A model generated the notes under the pieces. The model worked only from the letters and a program-made list of their open reading frames with translations. It did no database searches and was not told the origin of the DNA. Position numbers and translations under genes: made by a program. 64,000 bases of DNA from Arenicella chitinivorans. GTDB lineage: Bacteria; Pseudomonadota; Gammaproteobacteria; Arenicellales; Arenicellaceae. The stretch covers positions 1 to 64,000 of the forward strand of contig NZ_BMXA01000003.1 of assembly GCF_014651515.1 (NCBI RefSeq). The letters are read 5' to 3'. Positions 17,986 to 23,347 of this stretch are shown here, piece by piece. Each line of letters begins with the position of its first letter. Position 1 is the first letter of the stretch.

Positions 17986-19338
17986 CTAATCTGCGTCCTT
18001 GGTGCGCATGGTGCAGAACTCCTCAGCCATGCTCGGATGAATCCCGACAGTGGCGTCGAAGTCAGCTTTGCGGGCACCAGCCTTGATTGCAATTGCTATG
18101 CCTTGCATGATCTCTGCCGCTTCTGGCCCAACCATATGTGCGCCGATAACTTTGTCGGATGCGGCGTCCACCACCAGCTTCATGAGCACGCGTTCGGTGT
18201 TGTCGGTCAGCGTATGTTTGAGTGAGCGAAAACTGGAGGTATAGGTGTCGACGTGTTCGAATTCGGCGCGTGCGTCTTGCTCGGTGTAGCCAACCGTTGC
18301 CACAGACGGTTGTGAAAAGACGGCTGAGGGGACGAGGTTATGATCCGCCAAGCGGGGTTTGTCGCCGAAGACGGTATCCGCGAAGGCATGGCCTTCCATG
18401 GTAGCAACGGGCGTGAGCGCGATCCGGTCTGTCACGTCTCCGACGGCATAAATGGAATCCACATTCGTTTTTGAATGTTCGTCTACAAGGATCTGTCCAC
18501 TCGTACCCAGCTCAACGCCGGCAGATACGAGATTAAGATTGGCAGTATTTGGTGAGCGGCCGGTTGCAAATAAAACGCAATCCACCGCAATTCGATCACC
18601 ATTAGCGTAGGTCACCAGTTTGCGACCATCATCGACTAATTCGATGCGTTCTACGTGCTCGTTCAGTCGAAGGTTAATACCTTTTTTGGTGATTTCATCG
18701 GCCAGATGAGTCCGCACCGCATCGTCAAAACCGCGTAGAATTTGTGGTCCCCGATAAACCAGCGTGGTGTCCGTGCCGAGACCATTGAAAATGCCGGCAA
18801 ACTCGACGGCAATATAGCCGCCACCGATCACGATCGCGGTGTTCGGTTGTTCCTCTAGATGGAAAACTTCATTCGAGGTGATCGCGAGTTCCACGCCTGG
18901 GATCGGTGGTAGAAACGGTGTGCCGCCGGTTGCGATTAAAATCTTGTCCGCGCGCAATGATTGATCGTTTATGCTCACCGTATGTGCGTCAACCAGTGAC
19001 GCGCTGCCGTGAAACATCTCTACGCCAGCGTTCGTCAACAGCTTTTCATAGATGCCATTGAGGCGATCGATTTCCTGGTCTTTATTGGTGATCAGCGTTG
19101 GCCAGTCGAACCCATTAACACGCGTGTCCCAACCGTAGGTTCGGCTGTCTTCGAAGTCTTCGGCGAAGTGCGCAGCGTAAACCATCAGCTTTTTCGGCAC
19201 ACAGCCACGGATAACGCAGGTGCCGCCGTAGCGATACTCCTCACAGATGGCGACTTTGGCACCGTGTCCGGCCGCAATTCGGGCTGCTCGAACACCGCCT
19301 GAACCGCCACCAATAACCACTAAGTCATATTGTTTCAT
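17986..19338 (-). CDS. gor: Glutathione-disulfide reductase
   Basis: A cytoplasmic flavoprotein that reduces glutathione disulfide with NADPH. At 450 residues it is full length. FAD-binding GGGSGGVRAA lies at 10-19, the redox-active disulfide is Cys41/Cys46 in GGTCVIRGCVPKK, the NADPH-binding GGGYIAVEFAG lies mid-protein, ATGRSPN follows, and the C-terminal catalytic His434 is in GIHPSMAEEF. The GCVPKKLM sequence favours glutathione reductase over the other class-I pyridine-nucleotide disulfide oxidoreductases. It lies downstream of the rpoH terminator. Confidence 0.94.
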   Translation of the reverse strand: MKQYDLVVIGGGSGGVRAARIAAGHGAKVAICEEYRYGGTCVIRGCVPKKLMVYAAHFAEDFEDSRTYGWDTRVNGFDWPTLITNKDQEIDRLNGIYEKLLTNAGVEMFHGSASLVDAHTVSINDQSLRADKILIATGGTPFLPPIPGVELAITSNEVFHLEEQPNTAIVIGGGYIAVEFAGIFNGLGTDTTLVYRGPQILRGFDDAVRTHLADEITKKGINLRLNEHVERIELVDDGRKLVTYANGDRIAVDCVLFATGRSPNTANLNLVSAGVELGTSGQILVDEHSKTNVDSIYAVGDVTDRIALTPVATMEGHAFADTVFGDKPRLADHNLVPSAVFSQPSVATVGYTEQDARAEFEHVDTYTSSFRSLKHTLTDNTERVLMKLVVDAASDKVIGAHMVGPEAAEIMQGIAIAIKAGARKADFDATVGIHPSMAEEFCTMRTKDAD

Positions 19339-19395
19339 TCTTAACTCTTTTTTTTGCAGATGTCTGCGTTACTCGTTGGCAGGATCATAGTGTAC

Positions 19396-19426
19396 AAAAA
19401 AAGAGCCCTTTCTTGCGAAAGGGCTC
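19396..19426 (-). terminator. Strong Rho-independent terminator of rpoH
   Basis: A perfect 10-bp stem, gagccctttc (19403-19412) and gaaagggctc (19417-19426), with a tetraloop. On the minus strand it is followed by seven U (A-run 19396-19402). It lies 34 bases past the rpoH stop. Confidence 0.9.
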
Positions 19427-19459
19427 GATTGTCTAGTGTTTCGCGATACTGAAAGGTGT

Positions 19460-20317
19460 TTAGGCGGCTAGCTGACCCTTCATTTTCTGCATCGCGCGCT
19501 TCTCAATTTGACGAATGCGCTCCGCGGATACATTGTACTCCGCTGCTAATTCATGCAAAGTCGCTTTGCTCTCGCTCAACCAGCGGCGTTGCAGGATGTC
19601 TTTACTGCGGTCGTCTAAGTCCTCAATAGCGGCGTACAGAGAGTCACGATTGTTATCGCTGGTTTCTGTCTTCATCACGAGCTCTTCAGGATTGTAACGC
19701 ATGTCTGGAAGGTACGCAGACGGACTGGTTGTGAACTCATCATCGTCGCTCTCTTGACCGTCAAAAGCCACGTCATTAGAGGTTAGGCGCTGTTCCATCT
19801 CTCTGACAGTTTTAACGGGGACATCAAGGTCCGAGGCTAAATCTTGCGTTTCTTGTTCGGTCAGCGCGCTGAGCGATTTGCGTGACTTCCTTAAATTAAA
19901 GAATAGCTTTCGCTGAGCCTTGGTTGTCGCGACCTTAACAATTTTCCAATTCTTGAGTACATACTCGTAAATTTCAGCTTTGATCCAGTGTACTGCGTAA
20001 GACACTAAGCGAATGCCGCGATCCGGGTCGAAATTCTTTACTGCTTTCATTAGGCCTATATTGCCTTCTTGAATCAGGTCCGCCACTGGCAGGCCATAGC
20101 CTGTAAAGCTTTTGGCCACATGAATAACGTGACGCAGCTGTGATACCACCAGCTGACGAGCCGCATCCACATCGTCGTTATCACGGTATTGCCGCGCCAA
20201 ACGAGCTTCTGTTTCTGCAGTCAAAACCGGTGCGCTATTAGCGACTTGCAAGAAGCTCGCTAAATTCGTGTCCTGTGGTAATGAAACAGGATTTGCAGTG
20301 GTTTTGGTTTTTGCCAT
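19460..20317 (-). CDS. rpoH: RNA polymerase sigma-32 (heat-shock sigma factor)
   Basis: A 285-residue sigma-70-family factor that directs RNA polymerase to heat-shock promoters. Region 2 is clear (DLIQEGNIGLMKAVKNFDP, 80-98; VSYAVHWIKAEIYEYV). The RpoH-box, QRKLFFNLR (135-143), identifies it as sigma-32 and is the segment linked to FtsH and chaperone control. Region 4 has a C-terminal helix-turn-helix (LAAEYNVSAERIRQIEKRA). GGAG lies 8 bases before the ATG. The gene sits downstream of ftsX as in E. coli, but its own 347-base leader carries a CIRCE operator and a sigma-32 promoter. Confidence 0.97.
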   Translation of the reverse strand: MAKTKTTANPVSLPQDTNLASFLQVANSAPVLTAETEARLARQYRDNDDVDAARQLVVSQLRHVIHVAKSFTGYGLPVADLIQEGNIGLMKAVKNFDPDRGIRLVSYAVHWIKAEIYEYVLKNWKIVKVATTKAQRKLFFNLRKSRKSLSALTEQETQDLASDLDVPVKTVREMEQRLTSNDVAFDGQESDDDEFTTSPSAYLPDMRYNPEELVMKTETSDNNRDSLYAAIEDLDDRSKDILQRRWLSESKATLHELAAEYNVSAERIRQIEKRAMQKMKGQLAA

Positions 20318-20395
20318 TCAGTTTTCTCCGTATACTCATTAGAGCTAGTCTGACGACCTCCTATATAAAGCGAGATCCGCCTTGATTGCTCAATA

Positions 20396-20422
20396 TTAGC
20401 ACTCTGACTTATGGAGTGCTAA
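20396..20422. promoter_or_regulatory. CIRCE element (HrcA repressor operator) upstream of rpoH
   Basis: A perfect copy of the CIRCE consensus, TTAGCACTC-N9-GAGTGCTAA, with arms at 20396-20404 and 20414-20422. The dyad extends two more bases each side (TA/TA), giving 11-bp arms. CIRCE is bound by HrcA, the heat-sensitive repressor that normally controls groESL and dnaK operons. Here it lies 79-105 bases upstream of the rpoH start, downstream of the sigma-32 promoter. HrcA itself is not encoded in the window. Confidence 0.93.
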
Positions 20423-20454
20423 TAAATTTATTTTCTGTAAAAAGCAGAATTATT

Positions 20455-20471
20455 AATAACCTCAGGTTATT
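20455..20471. promoter_or_regulatory. 7-bp dyad in the rpoH leader
   Basis: aataacc (20455-20461) and ggttatt (20465-20471) are perfect inverted repeats with a 3-base centre, located between the sigma-32 promoter and the CIRCE. It could be a protein operator or a small hairpin just after the transcription start. No known factor is assigned. Confidence 0.35.
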
Positions 20472-20491
20472 GAAATTTCCTATTCAACAAT

Positions 20492-20519
20492 TAATGGGGA
20501 TAACATCGGCTATTTCAAG
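20492..20519 (-). promoter_or_regulatory. Sigma-32 (heat-shock) promoter for rpoH
   Basis: On the minus strand CTTGAAA (20513-20519) is followed by a 13-base spacer and CCCCATTA (20492-20499). The E. coli sigma-32 consensus is CTTGAAA, 11-16 bases, CCCCATNT, so the match fails only at the last base. It reads toward rpoH and would start transcription near 20484. It implies positive autoregulation of sigma-32. Confidence 0.8.
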
Positions 20520-20645
20520 GCTGCCTTACCAAATTGTCATCTCGCGTCCAGTGTCGTAAGTTCGTTATTTGTTGGATAGGCTGAACAGCACGAAAATTGG
20601 CTGTCGGCAAGCATCTTTAATCATACTGCTAGACTTATAAGGCCG

Positions 20646-20674
20646 ACCGCGCTCGGACTTGCTTTCAGCGCGGT
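20646..20674 (-). terminator. Weak hairpin at the end of ftsX
   Basis: accgcgct (20646-20653) and agcgcggt (20667-20674) form an 8-bp stem with a 13-base loop spanning the ftsX stop codon. No U-tract follows on the minus strand, so it may attenuate rather than end the ftsYEX transcript before rpoH. Low confidence. Confidence 0.3.
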
Positions 20675-21597
20675 TGAATGTGGCGCAAATGCTGGGCGAC
20701 AGACCAACGGGCGGCCAACCAGCCAAGCACAACGCCAGCGATCAGAATCGTTGCAATTTCACCGCTGTGCAGGGTATACACCATGGCTGCTGTATCGTAT
20801 AACTCAATCAGTTTTGCAAGGGGCGCGGACACTAGATGCCCGGCGAGTTTGAGTAAGCCCAGCGTAATACTTGCACCGAACAAACCGAACAGCGCGCCAT
20901 AATACAGAAATGGGCGTCGGACAAAGGTATTGGTGCCGCCGACCAGTTTGATAATTTCGATTTCAGAGCGTCGATTGAAGATCAATAATTTAATCGTGTT
21001 CCCCACAATCAGGATTAGTGCAACGCCTAGTAAACCGCTGAGTAAAATGGCGATGCGGGTAAACACACCCAAAATCGCATTGAATCGATTGGTCCAGTCC
21101 AGATCGAGCCGTATCGACTCAATGCCGTCAAATAAGGCCAACTCTTCTTTCAAGGCAACCAGTTGCGTTGGCCCGGCAGAGGACGCGTCAGGCATCACGA
21201 CGATGGATGGTGGCAATGGATTCTCGCCCAAAAAGGCCAACTCTTGATCTAAGGAAATATCGCTGGATTTGGCACTCAGAATTCGAAACTCATCCAGAGC
21301 GGCTTCGGGCGTAACGAATTCAGCGAGTTCGATTGACGGATGCAGCTGGATTTCTTGAAATAAGGCACTCGCCGTGCTGTCGGAAATGTCTTTGTTGAGA
21401 AAAATACTAATTTGTGGACGGCCTTCCCAGTTTTGACTCAGGCTTTGAGCGCTTTTAATCCCGATGTACAGCAGGCAAGGCAGCAGTAAGGTGATGGCGA
21501 TGATCAGCACCGTGTTGATGGTGGCGGTTGGCGTGCGCCGCATGTCGCCCAGGGTCGCAAACAGAACTTGCAGGTGTCGCGTAAGGTAGGTCAGCAT
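20665..21597 (-). CDS. ftsX: Cell-division ABC transporter-like permease FtsX
   Basis: A 310-residue inner-membrane protein with four expected membrane segments: about 27-48 (INTVLIIAITLLLPCLLYIG), one near 180-200 (ILLSGLLGVALILIVGN), and two in the C-terminal third. A periplasmic domain lies between the first two. FtsEX couples ATP hydrolysis to activation of septal peptidoglycan hydrolases. The start codon directly abuts the ftsE stop (TAA then ATG), so the two subunits are translated together. Order ftsY-ftsE-ftsX-rpoH is conserved in gammaproteobacteria. Confidence 0.95.
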   Translation of the reverse strand: MLTYLTRHLQVLFATLGDMRRTPTATINTVLIIAITLLLPCLLYIGIKSAQSLSQNWEGRPQISIFLNKDISDSTASALFQEIQLHPSIELAEFVTPEAALDEFRILSAKSSDISLDQELAFLGENPLPPSIVVMPDASSAGPTQLVALKEELALFDGIESIRLDLDWTNRFNAILGVFTRIAILLSGLLGVALILIVGNTIKLLIFNRRSEIEIIKLVGGTNTFVRRPFLYYGALFGLFGASITLGLLKLAGHLVSAPLAKLIELYDTAAMVYTLHSGEIATILIAGVVLGWLAARWSVAQHLRHIQPR

Positions 21598-22296
21598 TTA
21601 ACTTTCCGCTTCTGGGTTGGGTTGGTGCGTAACCGGCTGTGCCAGGTTCATTAGTTGCCCGTGTGCCAAATGGATAGTGCGATTGCCGAGGCGTTCGATC
21701 TGTCGAAAATCATGGGTAGCGATCATCACTGTAACCCCGACCCGGTTAAAGTCTGCGAATATATCAATGATTTCGTCAGACAAAGCATCGTCTAGGTTGC
21801 CGGTCGGTTCGTCGGCGAGCAAGATGCTGGGTCGGTTGATGACGGCACGGGCGATGCCGACGCGTTGTTGTTCGCCACCCGAAAGTGTGATCGGTAACTG
21901 TTTTTCCTTGCCAGACAAGCCAACCTTGCCAAGTGCCGCACGAACCCGTTTTTGGATTTCATCATGTGGCATACCAATAACGATCAATGGGAGTGCCACG
22001 TTGTCGAATACTGAGCGGTCCATTAACAGTTTATGGTCTTGGAAAATGACGCCAATGTCGCGACGCAGCGCTGGAATTTTGTTATCGCGCAGACGGCTCA
22101 GGTTCTGGTTGTCGACCAGTATTTGTCCCGAGGTGGGTTTCTCGATACGGGTAATGAGTTTGAACAACGTACTTTTCCCCGCGCCGGAGTGCCCGGCCAA
22201 GAAGACCATTTCTCCGGCGGCAATATCAAAGCTGACGTCATGCAATGCTTCGTGACCATTCGGATAGCGTTTAGTAACGTGGCTAAGTTTGATCAT
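21598..22296 (-). CDS. ftsE: Cell-division ATP-binding protein FtsE
   Basis: A 232-residue ABC ATPase that pairs with FtsX at the divisome. The Walker A motif is GHSGAGKST (35-43), the ABC signature is LSGGEQQRVGIARA, and the Walker B and D-loop segment is ILLADEPTGNLD. HDF carries the switch histidine. The normal FtsE length is about 220; the extra C-terminal residues are Pro/Asn/Glu-rich. It starts 7 bases after the ftsY stop, in the same operon. Confidence 0.96.
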   Translation of the reverse strand: MIKLSHVTKRYPNGHEALHDVSFDIAAGEMVFLAGHSGAGKSTLFKLITRIEKPTSGQILVDNQNLSRLRDNKIPALRRDIGVIFQDHKLLMDRSVFDNVALPLIVIGMPHDEIQKRVRAALGKVGLSGKEKQLPITLSGGEQQRVGIARAVINRPSILLADEPTGNLDDALSDEIIDIFADFNRVGVTVMIATHDFRQIERLGNRTIHLAHGQLMNLAQPVTHQPNPEAES

Positions 22297-22303
22297 GGCG
22301 TTG

Positions 22304-23347
22304 TTATTGCGGGTCTAAATCAGGCACTAGCGCGGCGGCAAAGCCGTCTGCATCAAACGCTTGCAGATCATTAAAGCCCTCACCTACGCCCAGATAGCGA
22401 ATTGGCAGCTGATACTTCTGCGTGATCGAAATGGCCAATCCGCCCTTGGCAGACCCATCCAGTTTAGTGAGGCAGACACTGTTAACACCGACAGCGTCTT
22501 TGAAGTGATCTAATTGCGACAGCGCATTTTGGCCGGTGCCTGCGTCGAGAATCTGCATTACCTCATGCGGCATTGACGGGTCGAGGTTGCCAAGTACGCG
22601 ATTGATCTTTTGCAGTTGCTCCATCAAATCTGATTGCGTGTGTAAACGACCCGCAGTATCAATCATGAGCACATGGGTGCCCTTAACGATTGCCGAGGTC
22701 AGTGCGTCATGGGCAACCGCGGCAGCATCGGCGCCGTGGCCTTGAGCAACCACCGGGATATCCAGACGACGACCCCATTCCTGCAATTGTTCGGTCGCCG
22801 CCGCACGAAATGTATCTGCCGCCGCAAACATAACCGAGCGCCCTTGGTCTTTGAATTGTTTGGCGATTTTAGCGGTCGTCGTGGTTTTACCAACCCCATT
22901 AACACCAACCATCAGCATCACATAAGGTCGCTGGTGTAGTACATTCCAAGGTTGCTGCGCTGGGCGCAACATTGTCGCGACTTCAGCGCGTAAGCCAGCA
23001 ATGACGCCCGCGGCGTCTTGAATTTTGTGCTGCTTGACCCGAGTCCGTAGATTGTCGACCAGCTTTAGGCTTGCATCGACGCCGATATCGCTCGTGATCA
23101 GTACTTCTTCGAGTTCGTCGAACAAGTCGTCATCAAGGTCAAATGAGCCCTTAAAAACATCACCGATCTTGCCCAAAAGGTTGTTGCGACTTTTACTGAG
23201 CCCGTCTTCGACGGTGGCCGCCTCGGCGTTTAGATCGAGCGCTGACTCTGTGTTGCTCTTGTCACGGCTGAACAGGCGAGACAAGCCGGATTTCTTTTTC
23301 TTATTGTCGTCCGGGGTCGGGTTTTGCGGTGAATTCGTTTCGCTCAT
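22304..23347 (-). CDS. ftsY: Signal recognition particle receptor FtsY
   Basis: A 347-residue SRP-type GTPase that docks ribosome-nascent chain complexes at the inner membrane. The acidic/basic N-terminal A region is short (about 1-50, with KKKKSGLSRLFSRDK). The N domain then contains LLGKIGDVFKGSFDLDDDLF, and the G domain has MVGVNGVGKTTT (P-loop), DTAGRLHTQ and TKLDGSAKGG. It leads the ftsYEX operon and is divergent from rsmD, as in E. coli. Confidence 0.96.
   Translation of the reverse strand: MSETNSPQNPTPDDNKKKKSGLSRLFSRDKSNTESALDLNAEAATVEDGLSKSRNNLLGKIGDVFKGSFDLDDDLFDELEEVLITSDIGVDASLKLVDNLRTRVKQHKIQDAAGVIAGLRAEVATMLRPAQQPWNVLHQRPYVMLMVGVNGVGKTTTTAKIAKQFKDQGRSVMFAAADTFRAAATEQLQEWGRRLDIPVVAQGHGADAAAVAHDALTSAIVKGTHVLMIDTAGRLHTQSDLMEQLQKINRVLGNLDPSMPHEVMQILDAGTGQNALSQLDHFKDAVGVNSVCLTKLDGSAKGGLAISITQKYQLPIRYLGVGEGFNDLQAFDADGFAAALVPDLDPQ

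Follow-up and report, generated by a model that had tools for sequence, protein, structure and literature searches.

In the textbook models of the heat-shock response, translation and turnover determine how much sigma-32 Escherichia coli has, while in Bacillus HrcA represses chaperone genes. E. coli rpoH has several sigma-70 promoters, the sigma-E promoter P3 and a translational thermosensor, and in Caulobacter rpoH is autoregulated by sigma-32. An arrangement like the one analysed here was predicted by comparative genomics in Geobacter sulfurreducens, where CIRCE, the HrcA operator, lies ahead of rpoH (Rodionov et al., 2004; PMC545781, Table 8). Therefore, HrcA/CIRCE at rpoH is a known kind of regulation. 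PMC545781 was the only report of CIRCE on rpoH found in the literature searched. Neither its spread across the Gammaproteobacteria nor operator arms that double as -10 elements were found in the same literature, and a 2003 paper on beta/gamma regulons may report part of this.

The window (the whole 64-kb stretch of DNA analysed) carries the gene order ftsY-ftsE-ftsX-rpoH, assigned from NCBIfam profile matches and the list of open reading frames, and the rpoH translation contains the RpoH-box motif QRKLFFNLR. The features of the locus are collected in Table 1. A first-pass annotation had claimed a perfect CIRCE on rpoH, and we found it without a mismatch, its end 78 nt ahead of the ATG at 20317. 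The same annotation had proposed searching the genome for hrcA and for further CIRCEs. The genome (4.03 Mb, 99.6% complete) has exactly two CIRCEs at up to three mismatches, one at rpoH and the other at groESL (C4:8924-8950), and one hrcA (PF01628, E 1.2e-61, 348-aa ORF). This hrcA is solitary, lies outside any grpE-dnaK operon and is divergent from a gene that by inspection is NAD kinase-like. A molybdopterin-oxidoreductase-like ORF, also named by inspection, starts a few bases after hrcA (L215 3515-6766) instead of grpE-dnaK. At the same threshold, the whole-genome search found no CIRCE at hrcA itself. Because the genome has only two CIRCEs, the predicted HrcA regulon consists of groESL and rpoH.

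Table 1. Features of the rpoH locus, in window coordinates.
Feature	Position	Strand	Remarks
rpoH (sigma-32), 285 aa	19460..20317	minus	TIGR02392 374 bits, cut-off 323
Probable ribosome-binding site of rpoH, GGAG	20326..20329	minus	by inspection
Predicted sigma-70 extended -10, TGC-TAATAT	20393..20401	minus	from flank conservation; first six bases are CIRCE right arm
Perfect CIRCE, TTAGCACTC-CATAAGTCA-GAGTGCTAA in rpoH sense	20396..20422	minus	0 mismatches
Weak -35, TTAGCA	20422-20417	minus	18 nt upstream of the -10
A/T-rich tract GAAAATAAATTTA, UP-element-like	20423..20435	minus	directly upstream of CIRCE; strongly conserved in the genus alignment
Inverted repeat AATAACC-TGA-GGTTATT	20455..20471		between the sigma-32-like site and CIRCE
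Sigma-32-like promoter, CTTGAAA-N13-CCCCATTA	20492..20519	minus	13/14 consensus; predicted start near 20484

An Rfam scan of positions 18000-23000 found no RNA family. The predicted rpoH leader together with the early coding region folds with z = -1.76 (9 of 200 shuffles were equally good), a score that is neither for nor against an rpoH thermosensor. The inverted repeat in the leader is possibly the operator of some other regulator; its ATAACYNNNRGTTATT has a single occurrence in the whole genome. The full dyad is also seen in L009, L010, L012 and L024, and most other congeners have half-sites (the right half).

To see how the rpoH upstream region compares in relatives, as the annotation had suggested, we used 60 of them (17 from the genus, 3 from the family and 40 from the order). 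CIRCE, with zero to two mismatches, is retained ahead of rpoH in 58 of the 59 relatives that have the gene; G033 has no full rpoH and is outside the 59. The exception, G043 from the order, is a single contig with hrcA present and with two full rpoH genes (L065 and L066), both without CIRCE. A split third copy of rpoH also occurs in G043. In all 18 rpoH leaders of the genus, including that of the window, both 9-nt CIRCE arms are identical whereas the 9-nt spacer varies. We detected hrcA in 59 of the 61 genomes, and the two in which it was missed are 78% and 88% complete. The annotation had named lack of hrcA in the genome, and loss of CIRCE in relatives having hrcA, as points that would speak against HrcA control; the genome has hrcA, and all but one of its relatives with rpoH have kept CIRCE. 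The rpoH element is also the single CIRCE match within the window, where 0.02 matches are expected by chance (up to three mismatches), and this, with its invariance across diverged relatives, leaves next to no room for a chance match or a relic.

Other arrangements of the operator were seen among the relatives. Two leaders (L038 and L046) have two CIRCE-like sites in tandem ahead of rpoH. Family f2 has a third CIRCE adjoining hrcA (G032:C10:56410, G044:C24:41157, G060:C186:16087 and G053:C249:6355), which suggests that hrcA may be autoregulated there. This third, hrcA-adjacent CIRCE is absent from the window's genus.

We then surveyed 369 members of the Gammaproteobacteria (in the GTDB sense, beta included) with a composite pattern of the CIRCE core, 260-320 nt, and codons for DL-I/V-QEG. 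The pattern was found in at least 178 of the 369 genomes, and its reversed control in none. We detected hrcA in 268 genomes; it is present in 166 of the 178 CIRCE-rpoH genomes versus 102 of the 191 others (both, 166; CIRCE only, 12; hrcA only, 102; neither, 89; n = 369; Fisher p = 6.5e-19, a value that overstates the number of events because genomes are not independent). The hrcA-only count is inflated because of the distance limit in the pattern; G007, for example, has CIRCE on rpoH outside this limit. Of the 12 genomes with CIRCE only, ten have a completeness below 90%. A scan of named genomes, from which our own genome was left out, gave at least 119 CIRCE-rpoH loci. Among the matches listed are Woeseiaceae, Alcanivorax, Halieaceae, Dyella, Rheinheimera, Pseudoalteromonas luteoviolacea, Methylocaldum, Nitrosomonas, Variovorax, Roseateles and Advenella, and 115 of the 119 listed ORFs contain the RpoH-box motif. 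The best RpoH match from a named genome has about 57-59% identity to the protein of the window. CIRCE on rpoH thus appears to be an old and common arrangement, and the first-pass view of it as unusual has to be given up: it is order-wide, occurs in about half of the sampled Gammaproteobacteria and had already been predicted in 2004 for G. sulfurreducens (PMC545781). At the locus itself, the arm repeat with N9, the hrcA gene in the genome, the conservation of the arms against diverging spacers and the class-wide co-occurrence with hrcA all argue for HrcA control of rpoH, as the annotation had predicted.

The bases flanking the operator point to the promoter that it would control. Numbering CIRCE 1-27 in rpoH sense, positions 28-30 after the right arm are A/T, A and T. 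T30 is found at 93% of rpoH CIRCEs in the order (n = 58), at 91% when one per family is taken (n = 87) and at 97% among the named matches listed (n = 119). TANNNT occurs in 78 of the 87 one-per-family picks, the TG at positions 22-23 and the flank read TGC-TAAAAT or TGC-TAATAT, and 77 of the 87 families have a -10 that matches TATAAT at four or more of six positions. In the window the built-in promoter would be TTAGCA-N18-TAATAT with TGC and an A/T tract ahead, and its spacing predicts a start near 20386. A simple generic sigma-70 scan of the window found no site. TTTACA (20440-20435) was considered as an alternative -35 for sigma-70 and rejected, since no -10 lies at 16-18 nt.

It could be argued that the extended -10 is no promoter, and that the A/T flank reflects either an HrcA site extended on one side or the A/T-rich character of the region. 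The window -10 is a weak match (4/6 to TATAAT), as is its -35, and A/T-rich flanks are common in leaders. By contrast, T30 occurs in 7% of the groES CIRCEs of the same genomes (n = 27 in the order), which have an almost invariant TATTA on the other side, directly before CIRCE (27/27 or nearly), after a TTGACTTT-like -35. The rpoH flank, moreover, stands at fixed bases and is one-sided, the mirror positions to the left of the rpoH CIRCE not being conserved among the named matches listed. We therefore consider the absence of a promoter improbable. Because T30 is frequent at rpoH and rare at groES, it would be a feature of the rpoH promoter outside the HrcA site. The flank contrast also points to one operator in two registers, behind the -10 at groES and spanning -35 to -10 at rpoH. 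These comparisons support the idea that CIRCE most directly controls an extended -10 promoter formed by its own right arm, a promoter that the first-pass annotation missed.

Our explanation, which we hold as a whole to be quite probable, is that the HrcA operator forms part of the principal vegetative promoter of rpoH, with derepression alongside groESL and feedback from GroE. In unstressed cells, HrcA on CIRCE would cover the sigma-70 promoter from -35 to -10 and keep rpoH transcription low, and bound HrcA may also form a roadblock to elongation from the sigma-32-like promoter upstream. With heat, unfolded protein or occupied GroE, HrcA would come off and groESL and rpoH would be derepressed together. 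New sigma-32 would switch on the rest of the heat-shock regulon and probably, in this lineage, rpoH itself; with the return of free GroE, HrcA would be active again and rpoH closed. The HrcA of Campylobacter jejuni is heat-labile, no longer binding DNA once heated, and its binding is strengthened by GroE (PMC8533110); for the present locus, the heat-lability and GroE dependence of HrcA are carried over from other species. Because HrcA is aided by GroE in the species studied, the loop is probably negative feedback as much as a switch, and it would be homeostatic if the behaviour of C. jejuni HrcA holds here.

The annotation had also described CTTGAAA-N13-CCCCATTA reading toward rpoH, about 70 bases from CIRCE. 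Both halves are present (CTTGAAA at 20519-20513, CCCCATTA at 20499-20492), and the last base is 69 nt from CIRCE. Scored against CTTGAAA-N(11-16)-CCCCATNT, the site matches at 13/14 positions; when the 260-nt region was shuffled by mononucleotides 100 times, no shuffle scored as high. Five core matches occur in the 4.03-Mb genome, and the one at rpoH alone lies outside ORFs of at least 80 aa. In L008, the closest relative (98% RpoH identity), the site is kept at the same position with a different spacer, and sites with N13 that match at 11-12/14 stand at -97 or -78 in L010, L011 and L015. Most congeners lack the site, and it is not conserved across the order. Support for the proposed sigma-32 autoactivation is weak, the site being near-perfect here and in L008 but less good in a few congeners and missing from most. 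Autoactivation of rpoH by sigma-32 is plausible here, outside the conserved plan.

From these elements the annotation had built a switch-like response, combining HrcA derepression with sigma-32 autoactivation; in such a model the sigma-32 promoter would be the main heat-inducible one. The quality of the match, the fact that no other core match of the genome is non-coding, and the retention of the site in L008 are in line with this model. However, most congeners and the order lack the site while CIRCE and its -10 are conserved, and an HrcA aided by GroE amounts to negative feedback, which disfavours bistability; we regard the model as possible but doubtful. Transcripts begun at the upstream sigma-32 site would include CIRCE, which could then also act as an RNA hairpin; the palindrome would give a 13-pair stem if transcribed, and a stem of such size is listed on the opposite strand. 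That CIRCE is mainly such a hairpin, with an effect on how stable rpoH mRNA from the upstream start is or how well it is translated, is nevertheless very unlikely, since what the genus conserves is the sequence of the arms, with no compensatory changes, the flanking -10 would set the start downstream of CIRCE and the occurrence of CIRCE on rpoH tracks hrcA.

A further input is seen in other families. Among the 119 named matches listed, 68 have GGAACTT (at least 6/7) about 15 nt before CIRCE, versus 1.75 in control windows, and CIRCE bases 10-12 are T-A-A-like mainly in these GGAACTT loci. The TC of the left arm and the spacer then make up a sigma-E -10, TCTAA, at 16 nt (GGAACTT-N16-TC-TAA). 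GGAACTT with TC-TAA at 16 nt was observed in L028-L055 and in most of L096-L214. Within the order, 14 of 37 members of other families have the sigma-E box. In the window's genus, where the GAAAATAAATTTA tract occupies its position, a sigma-E promoter on rpoH was rejected: 0 of 18 leaders have the -35 box (at least 6/7) at the fixed distance. Because the box is found in other families and in none of the genus, the genus appears to have lost an input over which CIRCE extends in those families. We lean, with some reserve, toward a composite that extends across the Gammaproteobacteria, in which the right arm serves as a sigma-70 extended -10 and, in many families, the left arm as a sigma-E -10. 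As both arms would double as -10 elements, one HrcA site would gate housekeeping and envelope-stress input; the window's genus would have lost the sigma-E half, some species having an upstream sigma-32 promoter instead.

The arrangement is of interest since the standard model organism, E. coli, is without CIRCE on rpoH. In about half of the sampled Gammaproteobacteria, HrcA control would be superimposed on sigma-32 control, and the enterics and others having lost hrcA would be the derived case. It would explain in a simple way how sigma-32 levels could respond to the state of GroE, and the resulting prediction can be tested in culturable genera such as Alcanivorax, Dyella, Rheinheimera, Variovorax and Nitrosomonas.

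As a comparison, the present locus resembles Caulobacter in having a sigma-32-type promoter before rpoH, but here it is combined with CIRCE and limited to a lineage. The likeness to E. coli rpoH lies in the multiple promoters, and sigma-E input is common to many CIRCE-rpoH genomes. Unlike the present genome, E. coli is without hrcA (none was found in the E. coli control genomes) and without CIRCE, and the window's genus is without a sigma-E box at the site. Geobacter sulfurreducens, as described in PMC545781, also has a perfect TTAGCACTC-N9-GAGTGCTAA ahead of rpoH and CIRCE on groESL. It differs in being a delta-proteobacterium whose rpoH CIRCE lies at -51 and in which hrcA-grpE-dnaK-dnaJ has a third copy, whereas here hrcA is solitary and without CIRCE, and the operator overlaps the predicted extended -10. 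With the classical HrcA/CIRCE control of groESL, in this genome and in Bacillus subtilis, rpoH shares the operator, the repressor and a heat-shock target; the groES CIRCE follows its -10, whereas the right arm of the rpoH CIRCE would belong to the -10 itself.
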